This document shows, one piece after another, positions 10,246 through 64,000 of a DNA stretch of 64,000 bases. The DNA is from Roseovarius sp. M141 (lineage in GTDB: Bacteria; Pseudomonadota; Alphaproteobacteria; Rhodobacterales; Rhodobacteraceae). How positions within the stretch are numbered: the first letter of the stretch is position 1; the number at the start of each line of letters is the position of its first letter. Under the pieces are notes generated by a model. It was not told where the DNA came from and did not search any database. It saw only the letters and a program-made list of their open reading frames with translations. A program made the translations under genes and the position numbers. The stretch lies in contig NZ_VCNH01000008.1 of assembly GCF_024355225.1 (NCBI RefSeq), positions 1,736,001 to 1,800,000 of the forward strand, written 5' to 3'.

Positions 10246-10322
10246 GCCGCCTTAGCTCAGTTGGTTAGAGCGCTTGATTGTGGATCAAGAGGTCCCCCGT
10301 TCAAACCGGGGAGGTGGTACCA
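10246..10322 (+). tRNA. tRNA-His (anticodon GTG)
   Basis: A complete cloverleaf. The acceptor arm GCCGCCT pairs with AGGTGGT; the anticodon stem CTTGA/TCAAG carries loop TTGTGGA with GTG at 10280-10282; the T arm is CCCCG-TTCAAAC-CGGGG; CCA is encoded (10320-10322). The first pair is G1:U72 and the discriminator is A73. These are the unusual alphaproteobacterial tRNA-His identity features, in place of the G-1:C73 pair found in most bacteria. Confidence 0.96.
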
Positions 10323-52977: not shown

Positions 52978-54078
52978 CTAATTTCCGCTTTCGGTGAAGG
53001 ATAGCATGTCACGCTCAACCATCTGGACAATGACGATATCGGGCGCGAACGCCTCCAGATATCGGCCGAGCGCGGCGCTATCAATAAACTTCCAATGTAC
53101 GCGATAGACGACCCTGAAGCTGGCGTCGAACAGGGCCGAGGAGGCGGTGCAGAAGGAGTCGCACAGCATTAAAACGGTCTGGTCATTGGGCGCATTGTCG
53201 GTCCGGGTCATCTTCATGGATCTGTCCATGACCGACACCTCACCATCACCCGAGGGGACACATGCGCTGGTGTCACCAGACAGCAGGCTGAGCGTCGCCA
53301 GGCATGTTTCGGGGGGCGGGGTCATCGTGATGCGGTAGTCGACCTCGTGATCCGGGCCAAACATCTCATGCATTTTAAGAAGGCGAACGAGGTCCCCGGC
53401 CGGGCGATTGACCGGGGTCAGCTGGTAGTCGACGGGCGATGCCGGAACCGCGTGCTGATCACTTAGGAATCGCATGACATTATCATAGCTGGCCGCTGCC
53501 CCGGCACGGGTCCAATGCGTATCGGTTTTCAAATAGGCTTGGCTGGTTTCCTTGAGCCGCCGCATCACCGGCCGCAGGTCCAGGATGGAAACACCCATCG
53601 CTTCGGCGCGATTTACGAATGCGTCGGTCACGGTTTGCTGCGCCGGGTTCAGATCCGGCGGCAGCATTTCGGGGTAAACCGAATGTTTGTTCGGCGCGAT
53701 CACAACAGCCAGAGCAGCGCCTGCATCTGCAACCCTTTGCTGAAGACGGGCCAGACCGGCGGCGCGATCTTCAATCAGCCCCGCTGGTGGTTGCCAGCTG
53801 CCAGTCGCCTTGCTGATGACCTGCCCATCATCGTCGCCAAGGAAAAAGTAACCGTTTCGCCCGATCCGCGTGCGTCCGGGATACATCGAGCGATTGCAGC
53901 ACGACATGAGCAGATAAGCGACATTGCCTTCGACGCGGTCCAGTGACCATAGATCACGCGTCTCGGACGGCCACAGCTTGCCTCCGATATAGGCGCGCAA
54001 TGCGAGATTGGCGATCGGAAGGCTTAGAATGATGGCGGTGGCGATCGCGGCAAAGATGGTCAGGCGGCGGCGGTACAT
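52978..54078 (-). CDS. AlgJ/AlgX-like SGNH O-acetyltransferase component
   Basis: A ~366-residue protein with an N-terminal membrane anchor (MYRRRLTIFAAIATAIILSLPIANLALRAYI) and a periplasmic SGNH-like domain. YLKTDTHWTRAGAAASYDNVM has the D-x-H pair, and LMLCDSFCTAS resembles the DSF serine block. ALAVVIAPNKHSVYPEMLP is typical of AlgJ. It takes acetyl groups from the MBOAT partner to modify polysaccharide. The start MYRRRL has GAAGGAA eight bases upstream. It follows the AlgI-like gene by 13 bases. Confidence 0.85.
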   Translation of the reverse strand: MYRRRLTIFAAIATAIILSLPIANLALRAYIGGKLWPSETRDLWSLDRVEGNVAYLLMSCCNRSMYPGRTRIGRNGYFFLGDDDGQVISKATGSWQPPAGLIEDRAAGLARLQQRVADAGAALAVVIAPNKHSVYPEMLPPDLNPAQQTVTDAFVNRAEAMGVSILDLRPVMRRLKETSQAYLKTDTHWTRAGAAASYDNVMRFLSDQHAVPASPVDYQLTPVNRPAGDLVRLLKMHEMFGPDHEVDYRITMTPPPETCLATLSLLSGDTSACVPSGDGEVSVMDRSMKMTRTDNAPNDQTVLMLCDSFCTASSALFDASFRVVYRVHWKFIDSAALGRYLEAFAPDIVIVQMVERDMLSFTESGN

Positions 54079-54091
54079 GAGGGCCGTTCCT

Positions 54092-55513
54092 TCAAAAGTT
54101 GAAGTAGAGGAAAACGTCACTGCGAGAAATCAGCATAAAGATGCAGGCAATTCCGAACAGGATTGAGGCCAGGACCGTCTTCCACATCGGCCTGATATCG
54201 CGGGAAAATTGATCCGTGTTGGGCAGAGCCAAGACGCCGATCAATGCCAGCAGCAGGTATTTGCCCGCCGCGCTGGCATCCGATATCACGACATGCTTCG
54301 GCCCTTCCATCGCATCGGGGTTCAGGCCAAACATCGTTTGCAGGATATCTACCGCCTGGGCGGCGCTTTCGGCGCGGAAAAACACCCACGCAAGATGTAC
54401 CATGAAAAAGGTCAGCGCCCATTTAAGGATCGTCGGCAGGCGCAAGCCGGTCATGGCGAACGCACGCTCTACGACCAGTCCGGCGCCATGAATGGCCCCC
54501 CAGATGATAAAAGTCCAACCCGCCCCGTGCCACAGCCCGCCCAGCAGGAAGGTCGTCATCAGATTGGCACTGACGCGCATTTCGCCACGTCGATTTCCGC
54601 CGAGCGGGATGTAGATATAATCACGCAGGAACCGGGACAGCGTGATGTGCCAGCGACGCCAGAAATCCTGAATCGACAGCGCCTTGTAAGGCGAGAAAAA
54701 GTTCAGCGGCAGGCGTATGCCAAACATGCGCGCCGCCCCGATCGCCATGTCACTATAGCCGCTGAAGTCGAAATACAGCTGGAACGTGTAGGAAAACGTC
54801 GTGATCCACGCATCCAGAATGGTCAGCTGGGTATGATCCGCATACCCCACATCGGCATAAATGGCGAAGGTGTCGGCGATGACGACCTTTTTGAACAATC
54901 CCAGAGAAAATATGATGCAGCCCGCCAACAGGTTTTTCCAGCGCAGCATGGACGTGGTGCGCCGCATGAACTGTGGCATCATCTCCTTGTGGTGAACGAT
55001 GGGACCGGCGATCAACTGAGGAAAGAAGGTCACGAAAACCGCGTAGTTCAGTGCCGAACTGCGCTCGGCTTTGCCCTTGTAGCTATCGACCAGATAGGTG
55101 ATCTGCTGAAAGGTGAAGAATGAAATCGCCAACGGCAAGAGAATGTCGGGCACGCTCAGATCACTCCTGACGAGGCCATTCACCGTCTCGATCAGGAACG
55201 CGAAATATTTGAAGTAAGCGAGCAGACCAAGGTTAAGGGCGATGCCCAGCATCAAAAGCGCAAAGCTTTTGCTTCGGGCGGGCACCGGGGGGGCGATGTA
55301 GTGTTGAATGCCCCTTGAGATTGCGAAATTGGCGGCGATCGACCCAACCAGCAGCGGCAGGTACTCAAATTTCCAATAGCCATAGAAAAACAGAGAGCAG
55401 ACGATCAGCCACCACAGGCTTGCCCGTTGGCCGAAGAGGCGCGCCGTGACAAAATAGCCCACAAGGCTGAGGGGGAGAAACAGGAATACGAACTGGGCGG
55501 AACTGAAAAGCAC
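54092..55513 (-). CDS. MBOAT O-acyltransferase, AlgI-like
   Basis: A 473-residue polytopic membrane protein: the N-terminal LFSSAQFVFLFLPLSLVGYFVTARLFGQRASLWWLIVCSLFFYGYWKFEYLPLL, then FPQLIAGPIVHHKEMMPQF, the FSGYSDMAIG and RRWHITLSRFLRDYIYIPLGG motifs and the catalytic-His region LLGGLWHGAGWTFIIWG. It moves acetyl groups across the inner membrane to the AlgJ-like partner, which follows. The start is a GTG. The pair would O-acetylate the surface glycan made by the upstream genes. Confidence 0.92.
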   Translation of the reverse strand: MLFSSAQFVFLFLPLSLVGYFVTARLFGQRASLWWLIVCSLFFYGYWKFEYLPLLVGSIAANFAISRGIQHYIAPPVPARSKSFALLMLGIALNLGLLAYFKYFAFLIETVNGLVRSDLSVPDILLPLAISFFTFQQITYLVDSYKGKAERSSALNYAVFVTFFPQLIAGPIVHHKEMMPQFMRRTTSMLRWKNLLAGCIIFSLGLFKKVVIADTFAIYADVGYADHTQLTILDAWITTFSYTFQLYFDFSGYSDMAIGAARMFGIRLPLNFFSPYKALSIQDFWRRWHITLSRFLRDYIYIPLGGNRRGEMRVSANLMTTFLLGGLWHGAGWTFIIWGAIHGAGLVVERAFAMTGLRLPTILKWALTFFMVHLAWVFFRAESAAQAVDILQTMFGLNPDAMEGPKHVVISDASAAGKYLLLALIGVLALPNTDQFSRDIRPMWKTVLASILFGIACIFMLISRSDVFLYFNF

Positions 55514-55697: not shown

Positions 55698-57497
55698 CTA
55701 AACCGGCGTAGGCGGCAGGATCAGGGGGATGCGTGCATCCGCGTGGTAATGCCAATCACCCGGCGGGGCGTCCTCGTCGGCCATCAGTCGCCAGTGAAAC
55801 CCCGGGGTAAAGGGCGAGAGGGCGGAATAGGTCCAGTGCCGCTCGGCCTTGTCGTCGCGGAACAGGAGGGTATCGATCTGATCGCTCGTTTCCGCGCGCA
55901 GCTCGACCGCGAGGCGCGCGCCCGTGGGCAGGTCGCAACGTAGAGTGGCGCGCTGCGGGCCATATCCGGCAAACTGCCCCAGCTCGATCCTCGTGCTACG
56001 GGCGGCAAAGGGGGCAAGGGTGAGCACCGAGTCGCCGGTCTGGTCGTGGGCCGCGAGCGTCAGCGTCGCATCCGTGCCCAAGGGCAGGGCTAGCGTCTGT
56101 GCGGTGCTTGCTGTGTCCAGCGCAATGGGTTGTGAAAATGCACGCCCGTCCTGCGTATGGTCAAGCGTGCCAGTGATCCGGGCCAGCGCCAGCAGATCCG
56201 GCGCGCCGCTGATTCGTATCATCTCCAGTCCGAAATCGTTCGGGGTCAGCGTCAGGACGGCATCGGTGCAATCGCGCGTCGCACCCTCCAGCCGCCGGAC
56301 CCCCGCCGCATCCGCGAGGATGGCGAACCCCGATACCCGATAGGCCAACGGCTCGCCCGGCGACAGGGCAAGGGTTAATCCCATTGCATCGGTGGCCGCG
56401 TCCAGCATTGCCGAGACGATGGCCGGGCGCGGACGGTGCGGCGCCAGTGGCGGTGCCGTCAGGGTGACGCCTAGGGCGTGCAGCCCCGTGATTTGTTCCG
56501 CGCCGGTAGGCAGGTTGGCCAAAACGCTCAGCCGCCGCGCACCGGTGGGAATGGGAGCAAGCGTGCTGCGCTGGATCAATGGGTCCGGCCCGTGTTGGGC
56601 CAGAAAATCACGCAACAGCGTGAACGGGTCGGTGGCCAGGGTGATCCAGCGCAAGGTGGCGATTGGCTGGGACAGATCCCATTCGAACCGGCCATGGCCA
56701 GCATCGGCGCCGGTTGGCAGGGTGAAACGCGGTGTGCCGGTATCCGGGTCGTCGCTGGGCGCCGGGACCGCGAACCGCGCAATCAACCTGTCAGTGAGGG
56801 TCTGGGACAGCGCATCGCCCGCCTCGGGCCCCACCCGGTCCGACAGATCCAGGGGCAGGGCATCCAGTACGCCCTCGACCGTGCGGGTCAGCGCGTCGCG
56901 GCTGATCGGGTCCGGCCCGGCCCGCGCCCCAAGGACATCGAGCAAAGCGCCGGGGTCAAAGGTCGCGGTCATCGCCAGACGTGGGGACACGCCGCGATAG
57001 CCGATGGCGCCGGTGACGAACAGCGGCAGCGTTCCGTCCTGCAGCAGGGCTTCCATGATCGCGGCGCTATCGATGTGAAGGCGGCGCACAAACCGGGCGG
57101 TGCCGTCGCCGCGCATCACCAGCGTCGCGGTGCCGGTGACATCGCCCGGCAAGGCGATCGCGCCCGGCACGCTGCCCAGTTTGAGCTGCCCGGTGAGCGC
57201 CTCAAGCGGCGCCAATGTCGCGCCGGGGTGGCCCTCGCGCAACGCCTCCAGCAGGTCGGTTTGCGCCCGTGTCGCGGCGAGGCCGACATCCAGCACGCCA
57301 AACGGCGCAGGCGGCAGGAACGGGGTGGTGGGCCGTGTGATCGACAACCGAAACGAGGGCAGGCCGTCCGCGCTGGTGGCCAGCCCAAGCGTGGTATGGG
57401 GCGCGAGCCAGTTGTCCTGTCCAAAGGCCCGCCAGACGGGTCCGTCCTCCAGTACCAGCGTTTCGCCAAAATCCGGTAGCCCCTTGAGGATGATCAT
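55698..57497 (-). CDS. Large beta-rich protein of an unknown cluster (599 aa)
   Basis: I do not recognise this protein. No signal peptide or membrane helix is visible. It is rich in alternating strands (ATLRCDLPTGARLAVELRAETSDQIDTLLFRDDKAERHWTYSALSPF) and many Thr/Leu/Ala runs, with Pro at domain breaks. The C-terminal third has stretches (LEMIRISGAPDLLALARITGTLDHTQDGRAFSQPIALDT) like the repeat domain of the first protein of this cluster. It is the last gene of the six-gene minus-strand unit, 22 bases after the 829-residue protein. Composition matches the neighbours. Confidence 0.75.
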   Translation of the reverse strand: MIILKGLPDFGETLVLEDGPVWRAFGQDNWLAPHTTLGLATSADGLPSFRLSITRPTTPFLPPAPFGVLDVGLAATRAQTDLLEALREGHPGATLAPLEALTGQLKLGSVPGAIALPGDVTGTATLVMRGDGTARFVRRLHIDSAAIMEALLQDGTLPLFVTGAIGYRGVSPRLAMTATFDPGALLDVLGARAGPDPISRDALTRTVEGVLDALPLDLSDRVGPEAGDALSQTLTDRLIARFAVPAPSDDPDTGTPRFTLPTGADAGHGRFEWDLSQPIATLRWITLATDPFTLLRDFLAQHGPDPLIQRSTLAPIPTGARRLSVLANLPTGAEQITGLHALGVTLTAPPLAPHRPRPAIVSAMLDAATDAMGLTLALSPGEPLAYRVSGFAILADAAGVRRLEGATRDCTDAVLTLTPNDFGLEMIRISGAPDLLALARITGTLDHTQDGRAFSQPIALDTASTAQTLALPLGTDATLTLAAHDQTGDSVLTLAPFAARSTRIELGQFAGYGPQRATLRCDLPTGARLAVELRAETSDQIDTLLFRDDKAERHWTYSALSPFTPGFHWRLMADEDAPPGDWHYHADARIPLILPPTPV

Positions 57498-57519
57498 CTC
57501 GCACGCGCCCCCCCGCGGA

Positions 57520-60009
57520 TCACGGAAAGACGCTGAGGAACAGGATGTTGGAACTGCTGGTCAGCGGCTCGGGGTCGCGATCCTGTCGGCCGTTCACCCG
57601 GATCACGGTCTTGGTGTACCGGTACGTGCTGTCAGGCCGCACGCGCCGCAGGATCACCTCGTCAAAGGGGTAATCGACGCGGGCAATCACCTTTTGCGTT
57701 GCCTCATTCAGCGCCACCGTCGCGCCGCCCTCGAATTCGACCAGAATGGTGTGGATCTGATCATGGGGCCGGTCGGCAGGGACCGCAAACACCGCTGCGA
57801 TCGCATGAATTTCGACCTCGCGGTAATATTCCAGCGTCGAGCGGTCGAGGATTGAGTCCAGGATCGCGGCGTCGTCGAGCTCGATGCGGGGCGCGGTCGT
57901 TACTTGCAAAGTGGCGCGCACAAGGCTGAACACGACCGGTATGCTCGTTGTCAGGTCGAGCGTTTCCCCCGTTGCAAGCTGCATTCCATTTGTGATCTGG
58001 TCGGAAAGGTTGATCGGCACAGCTACCCCCGCGCGCGTTGCCGACAGGGCAAGATCGTCCAGCAACAGCGGGCTTTCGATGGCGTTCGTAACGCTCACCG
58101 CCAGCGTGGCGCCTCCCGAGCCGAGTGCCACATCCACGACGGGGCCGGCCAGTCTGCGAAAATCGGCGACGAAGGGCAGCGATTCCGTTTCCCAACCCTC
58201 GATCTCGATATCGACCTGCCCACCAAAAACGCTTGCGGTGCGTCCCAGCATCGCATCGAAGGCAATCTGGAAATCGGCGACCGGGATCGACAGCGTGTCA
58301 AATACGGTCGATTGCAGCATCAAGGCCCCCCCCAGCCTTTCCTCGGTCACGCGGCCTGCCTCGGTCGGGCGGTGGATCGTAAACCGCACCTCTGATGTAA
58401 CGAACGCCTGTAGCACGATGGCTTCTGCATCCTGCGAGGTCTGCGCCGCTAGGGCTGTGCGGGCGTCCGTCAGGCGGGCAGGGTCGGTGTAGGGTGCGAC
58501 TGCGTAATCCAGCGTCACATCGGTATTCGTCGTCGACCCGCCATTTGAACGGACACGCAGCGTCATGAAGGGCGAGCGTAGCGCGCCGCCGCGCCGACTG
58601 ATGCGGAAATCGTCAGGCAGGTAGAAGAACACGTTCCGCTCGGTGGCGTCCTGAAAATAGGAATGTACATTGCCCGCGAACTCCTGGCGTCGCCGCAAAA
58701 CTCCACTGGTCGGGGGCTGGCCCGGCGTGCCATTGCCGCCGCTGGACAGGCCATCAAATATATAGCCGTGCAGATCGGCGGAAAAGGCGAAGGGTTCGGG
58801 TGACACGGCCTGCTCCATCTCGGCTTCGATCAGGATGAACTGAGGCTCGGGCGGGGCAAGCTGCGTGATCTTCACCGGATCGGACAGGACCCGCTTGCGG
58901 GTCTGCCGGTCGGTCAGCGATATGCGCACAGAGCTGGGCGGCGCGGTGCCTGCGGGAATTGTCAGCGAGAAGTTGCGCAGATTTCCGGGGCTGGAAAATG
59001 CGCAGTAGCCATAAAGCCGGGCACCGGTTTTGCCGTCCAGAATATCGAGCCAGGTGCGCGACGCGTTCTTGTTCGCACCGCAGGGCGGCAGTTGCGGCGC
59101 GCCGGCGAACAGGCTGGGGTGAAAGGATTTCGAGTTCTTCACGCCCAGATTATAGCGATCAAACTTGCGCCCGCGAATATCGACACGTTCCGACCCATTG
59201 AAGACGACGATGGGTTTTACCAGTGCCGGCGTGGGCTGGGCAATGACCGGCCCAGTCGGGCGGACGATCGGCCCGGTCGGCCGGATAACCGGTCCCGTTG
59301 GCCGGACAGCTGGCTTCAGCGGCCGCACCGCGACGGCAATGCGCGGGTCGATGGCGCGGACACGCGCTGTCAGCACTTGCGGGTTCACGGCGCTTGCCTC
59401 GGTTCGCGCGGTTTCCTGTGCTTCGGGGATCATCAGCCTTGCCTTGCGGTTCACAATCAGCGTTGCGCCGCGTGCGGGATCCTGAAGTACCGCGAAAACC
59501 TCATCGCGTTGGGGCATGCCGGACAGAACAAGGGCTACATCCGCGCCGTCTTCGTCTCTGATAACCTCCTGAAACAGAAGCGATTTACGGGATGCGCGCG
59601 CGCCCTGCACCGTGTAGGACAAAATAACCTCGATGTCATGGGGCAGGGCGCTATGCTGGCTGGCGGTTGCGGCCAGCGCAGAGGCGGGCAATGTCTCAAG
59701 CCGCAGTGCCAGACGCCATGTGCCGTCGGTGTCGCTAAAGCCGATCCGATAGCGGGTCTGGCCCGAAACCAGTTCCTCGCCCAGATGATAGCGCGGCAGC
59801 CAGAACTTCAGCGAGGGGTTGGCAGCATCCTCGAACAGCTGGGTGTCCTGCGGCGTAGGGCTGGGCGCCACGGGCGCTGTGGCCTTGTTGCGCGGCACAG
59901 CACCGGACAGGGCCTTGATCCGTTCCGGCATTGCGCCGTGTGACAGTGTGGCAAGCGCTATCGGCGCCTGAAAATCGGCGCCCGGTGTCGCGGTCAGATT
60001 GGTCGGCAT
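57520..60009 (-). CDS. Large beta-rich protein of an unknown cluster (829 aa)
   Basis: An unrecognised 829-residue protein with no signal peptide. Residues ~60-240 form a beta-rich domain. At ~235-260 there is a short proline repeat, (V/I)xRPTGP three times. The middle holds FDRYNLGVKNSKSFHPSLFAGAPQLPPCGANKNASRTWLDILDGKTGARLYGYCAF. The last ~110 residues (IHTILVEFEGGATVALNEATQKVIARVDYPFDEVILRRVRPDSTYRYTKTVIRVNG) have the layout of the ~90-residue repeat in the first gene of the cluster. The start has AAAGGA six bases upstream. Confidence 0.75.
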   Translation of the reverse strand: MPTNLTATPGADFQAPIALATLSHGAMPERIKALSGAVPRNKATAPVAPSPTPQDTQLFEDAANPSLKFWLPRYHLGEELVSGQTRYRIGFSDTDGTWRLALRLETLPASALAATASQHSALPHDIEVILSYTVQGARASRKSLLFQEVIRDEDGADVALVLSGMPQRDEVFAVLQDPARGATLIVNRKARLMIPEAQETARTEASAVNPQVLTARVRAIDPRIAVAVRPLKPAVRPTGPVIRPTGPIVRPTGPVIAQPTPALVKPIVVFNGSERVDIRGRKFDRYNLGVKNSKSFHPSLFAGAPQLPPCGANKNASRTWLDILDGKTGARLYGYCAFSSPGNLRNFSLTIPAGTAPPSSVRISLTDRQTRKRVLSDPVKITQLAPPEPQFILIEAEMEQAVSPEPFAFSADLHGYIFDGLSSGGNGTPGQPPTSGVLRRRQEFAGNVHSYFQDATERNVFFYLPDDFRISRRGGALRSPFMTLRVRSNGGSTTNTDVTLDYAVAPYTDPARLTDARTALAAQTSQDAEAIVLQAFVTSEVRFTIHRPTEAGRVTEERLGGALMLQSTVFDTLSIPVADFQIAFDAMLGRTASVFGGQVDIEIEGWETESLPFVADFRRLAGPVVDVALGSGGATLAVSVTNAIESPLLLDDLALSATRAGVAVPINLSDQITNGMQLATGETLDLTTSIPVVFSLVRATLQVTTAPRIELDDAAILDSILDRSTLEYYREVEIHAIAAVFAVPADRPHDQIHTILVEFEGGATVALNEATQKVIARVDYPFDEVILRRVRPDSTYRYTKTVIRVNGRQDRDPEPLTSSSNILFLSVFP
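59243..59309 (-). repeat. Tandem repeat encoding RPTGP units
   Basis: About 67 bases with tandem ~21-base units in the 829-residue protein, read as RPTGPVI, RPTGPIV, RPTGPVI. It is a short proline-rich linker. Confidence 0.8.
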
Positions 60010-60057
60010 GCAGCGTCCTTTCTTGAAATCGGTATTAAATATCGGGTGTGCGCGCGG

Positions 60058-61038
60058 TCATGGCCGGGTTGCGGGGCGCAGCCCGACGCCCCAGAAGTGG
60101 CCGACGTCGGTTATGGTCAGCGCGATCATGCCGTGGCGCGTTTTCGCGCTTTTGCCATTGGCCAAAGCGCGGGAGGCGACGGTATAGGGTGTGATATCAG
60201 CCCCGGCGGCTTGCAACTGCGCCAGCATCTTGCCGCGGATCGCGCCGTCGCCGCCCCAAAGGCAGCGTGCGAAGAAAAAGAGGGTGAGCGTGGGCAACAG
60301 TCCTGATGAATCCACGCTGTAACTGAACCCCACGTCGCCGCCGGGCAACCGGTCGCGCAGCCTGTGTTCGTAGCTGTCTTCGATCACCCTGCGGATGTCG
60401 TCGGCGCGGTGCGCCAGCCCGACGGGGTGGAGGAGGTTGACCAGCGCCTCTGGTACGGGGGAGCCACGGTAATACACCTCGCGTCGCGGGCCGGGGCCAA
60501 GCGCCAGCATGCGGGTACTCAGCCCCCCGACATTTCCCGGCGGACGCGGAAGGGCGAGGTCGGCGATCATTTGCGCGGCCTTGTCGTCATCCGTCCATTC
60601 CAGATAGGCCTTGTAGTCATCGCCCGCAGCGCCATGACGCCCGCCAACCCAGGCGCCGAACCCGCCGGGCGGTACGTGGGGTAGCGCCACATCCAGCAGT
60701 CCGGTATCACCGTCCCAGCCCAGCCGCGCCAGACCATCCAGCACAAAGGGCAGGCGGCGGTCCGGGGGGAGGGCGGCGGCGGGATCGAACGTCCAGCGCA
60801 GCCTGGGATCGGCGGCGGCAAAGGACAGCTCGAACGGAAATCCATCTCCGGTCAAATCGCTGCCGGTCCACAGCTCGTCGCGCGACAGCCGCTCGCCAGC
60901 AAGCGTTCGCAGAGCCGTCTCAGCGCGCGCGCGCAAGCCTGCCGGATAGCCTGCCAGCCCCAGACGGGCCGCTTGGGGCAGCAGGTCAGGGGGGCGCCGA
61001 TCAGGGGTCGCATCGGGGATGGCGGTTGCATGGGTCAT
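60058..61038 (-). CDS. Protein with weak resemblance to ABBA/DMATS-type prenyltransferases
   Basis: A 326-residue protein I cannot place with confidence. LTGDGFPFELSFAAADPRLRWTFDP at about residues 62-86 looks like the start of the DMATS fold; KAYLEW, RREVYYRG and LTLFFFARCLWGG later resemble alternating strands with basic and tyrosine residues that line the prenyl diphosphate pocket. No signal peptide. Its ATG overlaps the stop of the small beta-domain gene (ATGA). This function is a guess by eye: it could equally be an unrelated beta-barrel. Confidence 0.6.
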   Translation of the reverse strand: MTHATAIPDATPDRRPPDLLPQAARLGLAGYPAGLRARAETALRTLAGERLSRDELWTGSDLTGDGFPFELSFAAADPRLRWTFDPAAALPPDRRLPFVLDGLARLGWDGDTGLLDVALPHVPPGGFGAWVGGRHGAAGDDYKAYLEWTDDDKAAQMIADLALPRPPGNVGGLSTRMLALGPGPRREVYYRGSPVPEALVNLLHPVGLAHRADDIRRVIEDSYEHRLRDRLPGGDVGFSYSVDSSGLLPTLTLFFFARCLWGGDGAIRGKMLAQLQAAGADITPYTVASRALANGKSAKTRHGMIALTITDVGHFWGVGLRPATRP

Positions 61039-61370
61039 TGCCGGTCCTCCTCCTGCACTGTGATGTCCAAAACGGCCTGGCTGCCCGGATTGACCGTGAC
61101 CTGTCCGGTTCCGCTACGCCCGTCTGCGGCGCGGGCCAGCAACGTATAGCGTCCCGGTATCAGCGCGCCGTATCGGTAGGTGCCATCCGGGCCCGTGACC
61201 TGACCGATGTCCTGATGGCGCGGGCTGTCGCCGGTGACCATGACCATCGCGCCGATCACCGGCGTACCGTCCGGCCCAAGGACCCGGCCAGTGATGACCG
61301 ACGGGGCAGCGCGTGTCCCGTCGGCATTTGCATCACCGGCATCCGATCCGGACCTGCCCGCCGCCGTCAT
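61035..61370 (-). CDS. Small carboxypeptidase-regulatory-like (beta-sandwich) protein
   Basis: A 111-residue protein consisting of one CarboxypepD_reg-like domain: TGRVLGPDGTPVIGAMVMVTGDSPRHQDIGQVTGPDGTYRYGALIPGRYTLLARAADGRSGTGQVTVNPGSQAVLDITVQEE. Such domains fold as seven-stranded sandwiches and usually bind or cap other proteins. No signal peptide. ACGAGG lies five bases before the ATG. Stop and start overlap with the next gene, so it is made with the prenyltransferase-like protein. Confidence 0.85.
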   Translation of the reverse strand: MTAAGRSGSDAGDANADGTRAAPSVITGRVLGPDGTPVIGAMVMVTGDSPRHQDIGQVTGPDGTYRYGALIPGRYTLLARAADGRSGTGQVTVNPGSQAVLDITVQEEDRQ

Positions 61371-61391
61371 GCCAACCTCGTCATGTCGCCA

Positions 61392-62447
61392 TCACGGGGC
61401 CTGACCGATCCAGCTGACGATGTTGTTGAACACGCCCGCCGTGATCCGTGTGGCCGAGTTGCCCGACAGGTGCCCGCTGGTGTGGATGCCAACACCGTAG
61501 CGCCCTCCGTCGGGCAGGTATTGCCAGACGGGCGCGCCGCTTTGGCCGCCGAACGTGTCGATCATGTATTTGATCTTGAACTCGGTGTGGCTGGCGATGG
61601 CCATCGAATGGAACCACTGCGTGCCCGATGGTTTGTCACCGGGATAGCCCGACAGGTTGACGACACCCGATTCCAGTTCGCTGTCGGACCGGTTCGTATA
61701 GCCTAACCAGCCCAGCCGGTCGCCGAACCGCGCGTCCTCGGGCAGCAGGATCGCACCATAATCCATGTCCGAATTCTGGCTTTCGGTCCATCCGCGCACG
61801 CTGCGCAATGCCCCGGTCGAGGCCGATCCGAACGGCTGGCTGCTGCCGCGACGGCCTGGGATCACCTCGATGCTGCTGGCCCAGCCACCGGCGCCGTGCA
61901 GGAACACGCAATGGCCTGCGGTCAGCACCACGCGCGGGCTGACCAGCCATCCGGTGCCGATAAAATTCGACCCATCCTGCGCGCGGATATTCAGCGAACA
62001 GATGCAGCGCCAAGGATACTGCTCATTGTTGGTCACTTCGATGCGTTCATCGGTTCCGATGACGACCTCTGGCATCATCGGGGCCATCTCGGACGCCGCG
62101 CGGCGTTCTTCGGGGGTGGCATAGGTGCCCCAATAGGCATCCAGCGCGGTCGCGGACGTGCTGGCCGCCCTGGGCATTGCCATGGCTTCGGGCTTGGGTT
62201 GGCTGATCGCCTCGACCGCACCTTCGGCGGCGGCGGCCTCGCCCTTGCCCATTTCGCCGTAGGACGGCTCGAACGCCATGGTCGCGGAGGCGGTCACGCG
62301 GCTGGACACCGGGCGCTGTGCCTCTTCGGCGCTTAGCGTCATATTCTCGCGTGCCTGCGCCTGCATGGTTTCTGCTTGGGCCTGCCCGCTTTCGATCAGC
62401 GCGCTCAGCTCCTTGGCGGTTTTTCCTTTGGTCTTTGCTGCGGACAT
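61392..62447 (-). CDS. Trypsin/V8-like serine protease without signal peptide
   Basis: A 351-residue protein with an S1 protease domain from about residue 125: H179 in VVLTAGHC, D229 in NSDMDYGAI, S303 in FGGQSGAPV. The order and spacing match glutamyl endopeptidase/V8-like enzymes. Residues 1-125 are charged and Ala/Glu/Met-rich with no hydrophobic leader (MSAAKTKGKTAKELSALIES), so it is not a Sec substrate by eye and may carry a pro-region. Ribosome site AAGGAG is eight bases before the ATG. It is second in the cluster. Confidence 0.9.
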   Translation of the reverse strand: MSAAKTKGKTAKELSALIESGQAQAETMQAQARENMTLSAEEAQRPVSSRVTASATMAFEPSYGEMGKGEAAAAEGAVEAISQPKPEAMAMPRAASTSATALDAYWGTYATPEERRAASEMAPMMPEVVIGTDERIEVTNNEQYPWRCICSLNIRAQDGSNFIGTGWLVSPRVVLTAGHCVFLHGAGGWASSIEVIPGRRGSSQPFGSASTGALRSVRGWTESQNSDMDYGAILLPEDARFGDRLGWLGYTNRSDSELESGVVNLSGYPGDKPSGTQWFHSMAIASHTEFKIKYMIDTFGGQSGAPVWQYLPDGGRYGVGIHTSGHLSGNSATRITAGVFNNIVSWIGQAP

Positions 62448-62462
62448 TTCAATATCTCCTTG

Positions 62463-64000
62463 TTAATTGGACAGATGCTCACCCAGGAAAATGATCGTCT
62501 CTTCCGAGGTGACGGGGGCAAAGCGCTTGACCGAATGGTCAGTGCCTAGGGTTGTGATCTGGAAGGAATATGCCTGCCGGGTCCGGTCGAACCGGGCGAT
62601 GCGCAGCCGTTGGGGCTGCAACAGCGCACCCTCAAAAGTCAGATCCTCTTCGCGCCGATAATCGTTTATCCGATCCTCGTAGATGACCTTGACGAACATC
62701 TTCTGCAGCGCCGCGCCGTCGAAATTCGGAAAGAACTCGACGATCAGGGCGTCATCGAAGGGATCGTTGACAGTGACGGAGGGCACCCGTGTCGCCGTGC
62801 TTTCCACCTCGCGCACCGATCCGTCGACCAGATGGTGGCGCAGCGTGTAGGAAAAGTCGCGCCGCTCGGGATCGTCCAGCCGCAGTTTCCAGCTCTGTTC
62901 GGGCGAGTCCGGGCGCACCACGATCGTCCTGTCGCGCTGCCAGTCGCCGCCATCATAGCGCAGCTGCACCTCGGTATGGCGGATCATGCCTCGGTCCAGC
63001 TCTCCGGGCAGGACCTTGATGTCGACAAAGCCGAAATGGTTGAACGGGTTGATCAGAAGTGTGCGGTCCAACGTCGTCTCGGGCGGCATCGTGTAACTGA
63101 GTGCGCGACCGTCCCAGCCCGACATCGGGTCGAAATGGTATTGCAGCGTGATCCGGTAATCGAGGTCGTGCGCATCGTTCATGAAAAACGTATGGCTGTC
63201 GGATGTCGGCCCGCTCCGCAGAAACGACATATCGCGGCGTTTCAGGGTCGCGGGATCGTTGCGCGATCCGTATTCGATCTCCACATCCGTGGCCATCAGG
63301 CCCAGCTGAGCGTAGTCGACAGGGTTGTCGACCTTGATCTCGATCTTGCGGAAGAACGGGCTGTCGAGGTCGACGGTGATGAAATGCGGCGGGCCGGACA
63401 GATCCTTGGCCATCATGGCGATGGCACCCTGCGGGGCATGTTTGCGCTGAACCGCCTGCTGTCGGTTGTAGTGCAGCGTCAGCTTCTTGTCCTCGATCTG
63501 CTCAATCTTTTGCAGCTTGAAGGCCAGCTTGATGCCCATGTCGGGGATGTCGGTGGGAAAGGTGATGGCTGGTCCACCACCACCGGGGGTCGGTGCAGGA
63601 CCGCCGGGCGTGGGTCCACCGGGTGTGGGTCCACCGGGCGTGGGACCGCCGGGTGCAGGTCCACCGGGCGTAGGGCCGCCGGGCGTGGGACCGCCGGGGG
63701 TAGGGCCGCCGGGTGTGGGACCACCGGGGGTAGGTCCGCCGGGTGTCGGTCCACCGGGGGTCGTGCCGCCGCTGCGGACTACGGTTCCGGTGATCGTCGT
63801 GGCGGGGGCGGTGTCGCCCTGGCGTGATATCTCGGCGACTCGATCGCTGGCGTCACGCACGCGTCCGGCATCGCGGGCGCGGGTGAAGCCGTGGGCAACT
63901 GTCGCGCCGATACTGACGCGTGATCCGATGATGCCCTGAGCCACATCGACCCGGCGTTGTGACAGTTCCCGGTCGGCGGTTTCGCGAGCCGAGTCCCCTT
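62463..64000 (-). CDS. TPGGP-linker protein with three tandem beta domains (N-terminus outside window)
   Basis: The frame is open to the window edge, with coding-like sequence (TADRELSQRRVDVAQGII) before the GTG at 63944, so the true start probably lies outside. After a ~60-residue helical start comes a linker of eleven T/APGGP units (about residues 61-122 from the GTG), then three successive ~90-residue domains: ITVDLDSPFFRKIEIKVDN.. (188-278), LLINPFNHFGFVDIKVLPGE.. (296-385) and VTVNDPFDDALIVEFFPN.. (389-475). Each has the same order of strands and a late YRI/YTL/FQI-x-H-like strand. Function unknown. It is the first gene seen of the six. Confidence 0.85.
   Translation of the reverse strand, partial: GDSARETADRELSQRRVDVAQGIIGSRVSIGATVAHGFTRARDAGRVRDASDRVAEISRQGDTAPATTITGTVVRSGGTTPGGPTPGGPTPGGPTPGGPTPGGPTPGGPTPGGPAPGGPTPGGPTPGGPTPGGPAPTPGGGGPAITFPTDIPDMGIKLAFKLQKIEQIEDKKLTLHYNRQQAVQRKHAPQGAIAMMAKDLSGPPHFITVDLDSPFFRKIEIKVDNPVDYAQLGLMATDVEIEYGSRNDPATLKRRDMSFLRSGPTSDSHTFFMNDAHDLDYRITLQYHFDPMSGWDGRALSYTMPPETTLDRTLLINPFNHFGFVDIKVLPGELDRGMIRHTEVQLRYDGGDWQRDRTIVVRPDSPEQSWKLRLDDPERRDFSYTLRHHLVDGSVREVESTATRVPSVTVNDPFDDALIVEFFPNFDGAALQKMFVKVIYEDRINDYRREEDLTFEGALLQPQRLRIARFDRTRQAYSFQITTLGTDHSVKRFAPVTSEETIIFLGEHLSN
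63572..63770 (-). repeat. Tandem 15-base repeat encoding TPGGP
   Basis: About twelve imperfect copies of a 15-base unit of the type GGTGTGGGTCCACCG give the T/APGGP linker of the first cluster protein. Copies differ mainly at third positions. Confidence 0.92.

Follow-up and report, generated by a model that had tools for sequence, protein, structure and literature searches.

The stretch of DNA analysed here (the window) comprises 64,000 nucleotides of the Roseovarius sp. M141 genome (G000:C8:1736001-1800000, contig NZ_VCNH01000008.1), and its far end carries part of a minus-strand operon encoding large beta-rich proteins, a serine protease and a putative prenyltransferase-like protein. An earlier note on the window had described a tightly spaced six-gene cluster at positions 55698-64000. 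A 16S gene of this genome is 94.8% identical to a Sulfitobacter record, the top match in the plasmid collection, which makes a Roseobacter-type alphaproteobacterium the probable host. The six frames are present there, but the operon is one of nine genes since it continues past the window end with C, B and A. When the minus-strand gene set is read on beyond position 64000, the order of transcription is A-B-C-D-PROT-CpD-E-F-G, with A (521 amino acids, aa), B (732 aa) and C (767 aa) upstream of D, and with intergenic gaps of 3, 30, 39, 15, 21, -4, 48 and 22 bases, the last five of which, including the one 4-base overlap, lie in the window. The protein with a TPGGP linker that had been taken for the first gene is in fact residues 555-1065 of D, clipped by the window end (Table 1). 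As the earlier note had stated, signal peptides appear to be lacking: in none of the nine operon proteins did a Kyte-Doolittle hydropathy scan show an N-terminus resembling a signal peptide or any clear membrane span. C comes nearest, with 2.19 over 9 residues close to its start and 1.63 over a 19-residue stretch at residue 577, and among the relatives scanned in this way the F protein of locus L013 has a stretch at 2.11.

Table 1. Operon features lying in the window (positions in the window unless given as G000 coordinates).
Feature	Position	Strand	Remarks
Gene D	62463..64000 (window part, residues 555-1065); G000:C8:1798463-1801660 (full)	-	1065 aa; D family profile 1376 bits
OmpA-like insertion of D, tail end	63827..63998	-	Residues 555-612 (whole insertion ~478-612); motif by eye and weak hhalign; suggestive only
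TPGGP repeat linker of D	63591..63761	-	Residues 634-690, read from sequence
D C-terminal beta repeats	62463..63518	-	About residues 715-1065; homologous to B and C repeats
PROT, trypsin/V8-like serine protease	61392..62447	-	351 aa; PF00089
CpD, carboxypeptidase-regulatory-like domain	61035..61370	-	111 aa; PF13620
E, PT-barrel protein, DMATS/CymD type	60058..61038	-	326 aa; predicted fold
F, beta-rich protein	57520..60009	-	829 aa; nothing above Pfam cut-off; 10 other loci hold BLAST relatives
G, beta-rich protein	55698..57497	-	599 aa; BLAST relatives in 13 other loci, adjoining F; N-terminal part related to C, D

The six large proteins, A, B, C, D, F and G, have no Pfam match that passes the cut-off. 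For F and G and for the C-terminal half of D the same holds in NCBIfam, PADLOC and PHROGs, Pfam being the one family library used for A, B, C and full-length D. An N-terminal domain of about 190 residues is common to A, B, C and D (pairwise hhalign values of 96-100%). The N-terminal part of G aligns with C at 94%, in an alignment that extends into the C repeats, and with D at 86%, and G very probably carries the same domain; F, whose N-terminal part aligns with A at 56%, possibly carries a distant form of it. Repeated beta domains occur in B, C and D (98.8% for B versus D over D residues 761-1059). The earlier note had likened the last parts of F and G to the D repeats. Domain sharing is borne out for the N-terminal domain but not for those C-terminal parts, which reach at most 2% versus D and at most 8% versus B or C in profile comparison. 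A structure prediction of B from 81 sequences (pLDDT 84.7, pTM 0.46) appears good for individual domains and unsure of their mutual arrangement; in the predicted structure residues 349-723 are tandem Ig/FN3-like sandwiches without a specific relative. An OmpA-like motif was seen by eye in the insertion of all five long D proteins. By hhalign the insertion reaches 33% versus two OmpA domains of the same genome and 0.1-0.2% versus six other profiles, and no OmpA match came from Pfam or PDB sequence searches; an OmpA-like insertion in the long D proteins is thus suggestive only. One relative of B (P0052) bears a C-terminal Emfourin domain (PF20242), which I take to be a metalloprotease inhibitor, a further tie to proteases.

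Conservation of the gene set, a point that the earlier note had left to be checked, was assessed from B, which has 197 relatives at E <=0.001 (own copy included). A scan of genome contigs gave 19 B-bearing loci, in Actinomycetota, Cyanobacteriota, Chloroflexota, Bacteroidota, Bacillota and Pseudomonadota; with the window's genome and genomes G084 and G309 added, gene order was surveyed by running family profiles over the open frames of 22 genome loci with B. The common order, over six phyla, is F-G-A-B-C-D-[protease]-E-X, where X is a terpene-cyclase-like gene. C comes next after B in 20 of the 21 loci extending past B, the exception (L067) having one protein that scores for both B and D, and D comes next after C in every one of the 18 loci extending past C. 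With L017 set aside, 15 of 21 loci have F and G upstream of B. The window has them after E, and in the actinobacterial L011, with L083, a frame scoring for F (its first part also for G) is placed after X, so that the window gene order is common to another phylum. Because a near-fixed order is kept across six phyla, the gene set is conserved beyond chance.

The occurrence of the operon is nevertheless patchy. B is absent from all 59 other genomes in one search, 35 of them of the same genus, and was matched in 3 of 384 other genomes of the class (one match being weak). In the cyanobacterial phylum (292 genomes) and likewise in the Caldilineaceae phylum (301 genomes), it was matched in the starting genome only. 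The B tree, in which 5 of 17 inner branches are open, cuts across the phyla: B of the window's genome clusters with a Rhodobacteraceae bin (99/98; the bin row is partial), this group then joins actinobacterial, cyanobacterial and chloroflexal sequences (96/99), G084 and G309 go with Nakamurella (100/100), and a Caulobacteraceae bin stands apart. Since the occurrence is patchy and the tree is at odds with the phyla, the simple reading is that the operon has spread horizontally, as these sequences suggest. A conserved order combined with patchy occurrence often marks something costly and useful in conflicts, and may do so here.

PROT, described in the earlier note as V8-like, is a member of the trypsin-like family (PF00089, 37 bits against a cut-off of 20.6, E 4.1e-9) with the catalytic triad H179, D229 and S303 in the motifs TAGHC, DYGAI and GGQSGAP. 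It is 51% identical over 294 residues to a Caldilineaceae protease occupying the same slot, and 39% identical over 237 residues to the trypsin encoded by the last gene of a Paracoccus operon. CpD is the single carboxypeptidase-regulatory-like domain that had been noted (PF13620, E 7.7e-14), and one also comes after the protease in L011 and, in the case of L013, in the upstream part of the locus. The slot after D is exchangeable. Fifteen loci extend 2 kilobases (kb) or more past D, two scrambled Cohnella loci being left out; among these the slot holds a trypsin (S1) in three (the window, L011 and L013), a caspase (C14, called by Pfam, with protease motifs read besides) in six (L014, L015, L016, L018, L021 and L022), and neither was found in six.

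The predicted fold of E is a PT-barrel of the DMATS/CymD type, in agreement with the faint sequence signal behind the earlier suggestion of a prenyltransferase-like protein. By sequence the window E stays far below the family cut-off, having no Pfam match and scoring 15 bits with TIGR03429, whose curated cut-off is 163.85; among its relatives, 8 of 34 match Trp_DMAT (best E-value 0.002) and 7 of 13 match TIGR03429 (best 2.9e-5). E70, R81, K143, Y145 and Y189 are invariant in the 36 aligned E proteins, all of which also have E187 in place of the second aligned Lys, the one of the DMATS R-x-K-x-Y motif. In DMATS enzymes a Glu is catalytic, and Arg, Lys and Tyr residues bind the diphosphate. E is present in 10 of the 15 loci reaching at least 2 kb past D; the other five carry two caspases (the second in broken frames in L021) and, being three Bacteroidota and two Micropruina, represent at most a few independent events. 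X lies directly after E in seven loci (L011, L013, L026, L062, L067 and the plasmid loci L032 and L033) and keeps DxDDT in all five aligned members, DxDD being the motif of class II terpene cyclases. It has no Pfam match, and its PDB profile matches, listed up to an E-value of 10, are all weak (drimenol synthase 0.098, squalene-hopene cyclase 0.21, a chain named HAD protein 1). At the X place, L029 has a squalene-hopene-cyclase-like gene (Pfam 2e-10). X was not found in the window's genome.

Immune-type genes neighbour the operon in three hosts. On a Paracoccus plasmid, three genes overlap one another by 4 bases; they encode an EAD1-trypsin, an EAD1 protein that matches AAA faintly (E 0.035), and an NTPase of the STAND type (AAA_16 above cut-off), and are followed, 129 bases further on the same strand, by B, C/D, D and D-like genes, a PLD-like gene and more. 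That operon ends with a tyrosinase and a trypsin (L069:11013-13479), a pairing reminiscent of prophenoloxidase cascades. Only in this plasmid set are an NLR/STAND protein and a trypsin partner part of the same operon; in the window's genome they are merely nearby, in a trio upstream of the operon (L070:4259-12421; G000:C8:1811258-1819420). The trio encodes an NLR-like protein of 1066 aa (AAA_16 E 1.8e-6, just below cut-off) that is 30% identical over 384 residues to the NLR protein of the Paracoccus plasmid, a trypsin of 708 aa with a C-terminal part that by eye resembles an ATPase, and a 943-aa fusion of subtilisin and trypsin. A divergent set upstream of A (L070:1215-4204) encodes an M15 peptidase, an N-acetylmuramoyl-L-alanine amidase and a metalloprotease-like protein related (31% over 136 residues) to an EAD1-matrixin encoded upstream of the Caldilineaceae operon. 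In Caldilineaceae two EAD1-trypsin-type proteins follow G, the first of them at 83 bases and 33% identical over 352 residues to the Paracoccus EAD1-trypsin; about 3 kb beyond them lies a relative of the subtilisin part from the window's genome, and three of the five EAD1 matches of the Caldilineaceae genome fall within 28 kb around the operon.

These neighbourhoods share features with several conflict systems. LypABC and other CARD-NLR systems comprise a trypsin-ATPase protein, an NLR-like protein and a further peptidase, with gasdermins, phospholipases or endonucleases as the effectors named (PMC13236601). The trio of the window's genome is similar in layout to LypABC of Caulobacter, and the Paracoccus EAD1-trypsin, EAD1-AAA-like and STAND genes resemble it too, whereas the available part of the description mentions neither the six beta-rich proteins nor E, X or CpD (PMC13236601). 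The EAD conflict systems, as far as the accessible sections of two papers describe them, fuse EAD1 to trypsin and other effectors and include STAND NTPases, with trypsin or caspase as activating peptidases and subtilisin in some (Kaur et al. 2020, PMC7159879; 2021, PMC8195603). EAD1-trypsin, STAND, trypsin/caspase and subtilisin features are thus common to the present neighbourhoods; by contrast, the NucA of NucA-trypsin system 3 was not recognised in the present sets, and 11 of the 12 other genomes searched hold no EAD1 at E 0.001. Words beginning with prenyl- or terpen- occur in the main text of neither paper, and tyrosinase does not occur in that of PMC8195603. In bacterial gasdermin operons, in the excerpts at hand, the gene for a membrane-attacking protein adjoins a caspase-like or other protease gene, sometimes with amidases nearby (PMC9612521). 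An exchangeable trypsin or caspase beside other proteins is the point of likeness; the present set instead has six large proteins, B with its Ig/FN3-like tail, and no gasdermin family match by Pfam in the window proteins or A-D. Nuclease-protease pairs of Hachiman/AVAST and canu loci also use trypsin or caspase in immune systems and exchange them between systems, judging by the portion consulted (PMC12799240), but no MBL nuclease partner was recognised in the present operon. From the DMATS/CymD aromatic prenyltransferases, in the partial account used (PMC3227686), E differs in its score below the curated cut-off, its Lys-to-Glu swap and its location outside a recognised secondary-metabolite cluster. 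No prenyltransferase-type barrel linked to such conflict systems was found in the papers that could be searched.

The reading that I favour, tentatively and at somewhat less than even confidence, is that this horizontally spread operon encodes a cytoplasmic hetero-oligomeric machine, licensed by a protease and serving defence or cell death. It builds on the gene set with its order and spread, on the exchange of proteases, on the fold predicted for E and on the modules that lie near the operon in three hosts. The body of the machine would consist of the six large beta-rich proteins, of which A, B, C and D, probably also G and, as a distant form, perhaps F have the N-terminal domain in common, and the exchangeable protease (trypsin here, caspase-type elsewhere) would be its licensing or executing enzyme. 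E, and in some hosts also X, may act on or with the body, perhaps by adding a prenyl group. The likely trigger in some hosts would be an immune-type module, such as the Paracoccus EAD1-trypsin, EAD1-AAA-like and STAND genes or the NLR-like trio of the window's genome; the protease, once active, would then cut a partner or one of the body proteins, leaving the complex to damage or kill the cell. Licensing of a cytoplasmic complex by proteolysis is favoured because the exchangeable trypsin or caspase recalls gasdermin operons, as partly seen in PMC9612521, and protease-activated nucleases, likewise in PMC12799240. A more specific version, in which a six-subunit complex downstream of NLR-like/EAD1 switches is cut by trypsin or caspase and lipidated by its own PT-barrel prenyltransferase (with X), the prenylation anchoring it to the membrane that it attacks, is a long shot.

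Several observations weigh against a protease-licensed conflict system. The immune-type link is seen in three hosts only; no NLR was identified beside the Caldilineaceae operon, and in the window's genome the divergent set, roughly 3 kb long, lies between the trio and the operon. Neither Pfam nor BLAST showed the ATPase-like part that was seen by eye in the 708-aa trypsin. EAD1 (at E 0.001) and a relative of the 708-aa protein were each matched in one of 12 other genomes, both times Caldilineaceae, and the window's genome has no EAD1 above cut-off, its best match (E 0.0164) being a frame with stops elsewhere. Furthermore, family libraries revealed no nuclease, gasdermin or other accepted death effector in the window's operon, and the protease slot lacks a recognised trypsin or caspase in those six of 15 loci.

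Alternatively, the products might get out of the cell with no signal peptide, for instance on lysis, and act on other cells as a toxin, adhesin or particle whose cargo would be the protease, a pore former or peptidoglycan hydrolases. I consider this doubtful. Large signal-less proteins, the tandem Ig/FN3-like domains of B, as in adhesins, and, weakly, the OmpA-like insertion of long D proteins would suit it, as would the M15 and amidase genes adjoining the operon and a Bacillus_HBL-type protein beside B-E-X in Azospirillum. Yet no tail, sheath, baseplate, tube or toxin-complex family was matched (PHROGs on the six window frames, Pfam on A-D), consistent with the earlier note's impression that no known system, such as an injection system, toxin complex or tail, is encoded here. 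When B was searched against viral folds, all rows were weak and scattered over the Ig-like part, and no phage or viral-contig relative of B was found. Caspase and EAD1/STAND partners, moreover, are typical of intracellular switches in the sections available of the EAD papers and PMC13236601. In three hosts the gene neighbourhoods speak rather for a conflict system licensed by a protease than for a particle, toxin or adhesion device.

An improbable alternative is a biosynthetic or lipid-modifying complex in which E would prenylate an aromatic residue or small molecule, X would cyclise the prenyl chain, the beta proteins would serve as scaffold or substrate and the protease would mature the product. 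The predicted PT-barrel, the position of X directly after E, its conserved DxDDT and its weak cyclase matches are what such a complex would have, but the Glu that replaces the DMATS Lys in all 36 E proteins, the five of 15 loci without E and the failure to find X in the window's genome make it less likely that E and X chiefly serve biosynthesis. Very unlikely, finally, is an ordinary surface or matrix protein cluster acquired with exopolysaccharide genes and having peptidase and NLR neighbours by chance: MBOAT, AlgX-like and (by eye) glycosyltransferase-like genes do adjoin G, but hydropathy shows no signal peptides, BLAST found no relative of the MBOAT gene in the other loci, protease and E recur, and EAD1 stands beside two of the sets.

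The multi-gene order kept in six phyla, the shared domains and the lack of a family match for the large proteins make this a candidate new system without signal peptides, as the earlier note proposed, supported as far as sequence can; the six proteins may assemble into one complex, on which the protease would act. The core protein families and the machine appear new as far as searched (A, B, C and full D in Pfam only), their function being a proposal, and no description of the gene set was found in the literature searched, a scope missing most subscription journals and preprints. The logic of a protease-licensed switch is, by analogy, already known. What sets the present case apart is that six large family-less proteins keep their order in phyla as far apart as Bacteroidota, Bacillota, Cyanobacteriota and Chloroflexota, yet are missing from nearly all relatives searched. 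As the effector arm of an NLR-like immunity they would be a new kind of executioner and would offer a testable link of prenylation, proteolysis and bacterial cell death. Even if they are not immune, a new, widely scattered set of protein families has been named.

Several loci depart from the common arrangement. Among the smallest versions is that of a Calothrix plasmid (L033:9839-14734), with B, E, X and a B-like fragment. On an Azospirillum plasmid (L032:6139-13943) three genes precede the small set B-E-X: that of the Bacillus_HBL-type protein (E 2.2e-12), one whose product is weakly HBL-like (E 0.072) and one whose coiled-coil-type matches are faint. The set of G309 (L067:2369-4672) is condensed to F-G-A-(B/D hybrid)-E-X, with no separate C. 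In Microbacterium (L028 and L023) D is split into two frames, and the gene after E (L028:18996-20099 and L023:18700-20004) has an N..FCGPTS motif that by eye suggests a papain-like cysteine peptidase; Pfam found no peptidase family in the L028 copy. The broken copies in inverted pairs of Cohnella faecalis (L020, L024) are decayed genes or an assembly artefact, and the Flavobacteriaceae bin that holds L014 also has a second, diverged set (L066) of D-, B-, F-, B-, C- and C-like genes. In the window itself, the AlgX-like and MBOAT O-acyltransferase genes next to G occupy positions 52978-55513 and perhaps serve exopolysaccharide acetylation, and a tRNA gene at 10246-10319 is the sole Rfam match at gathering score.

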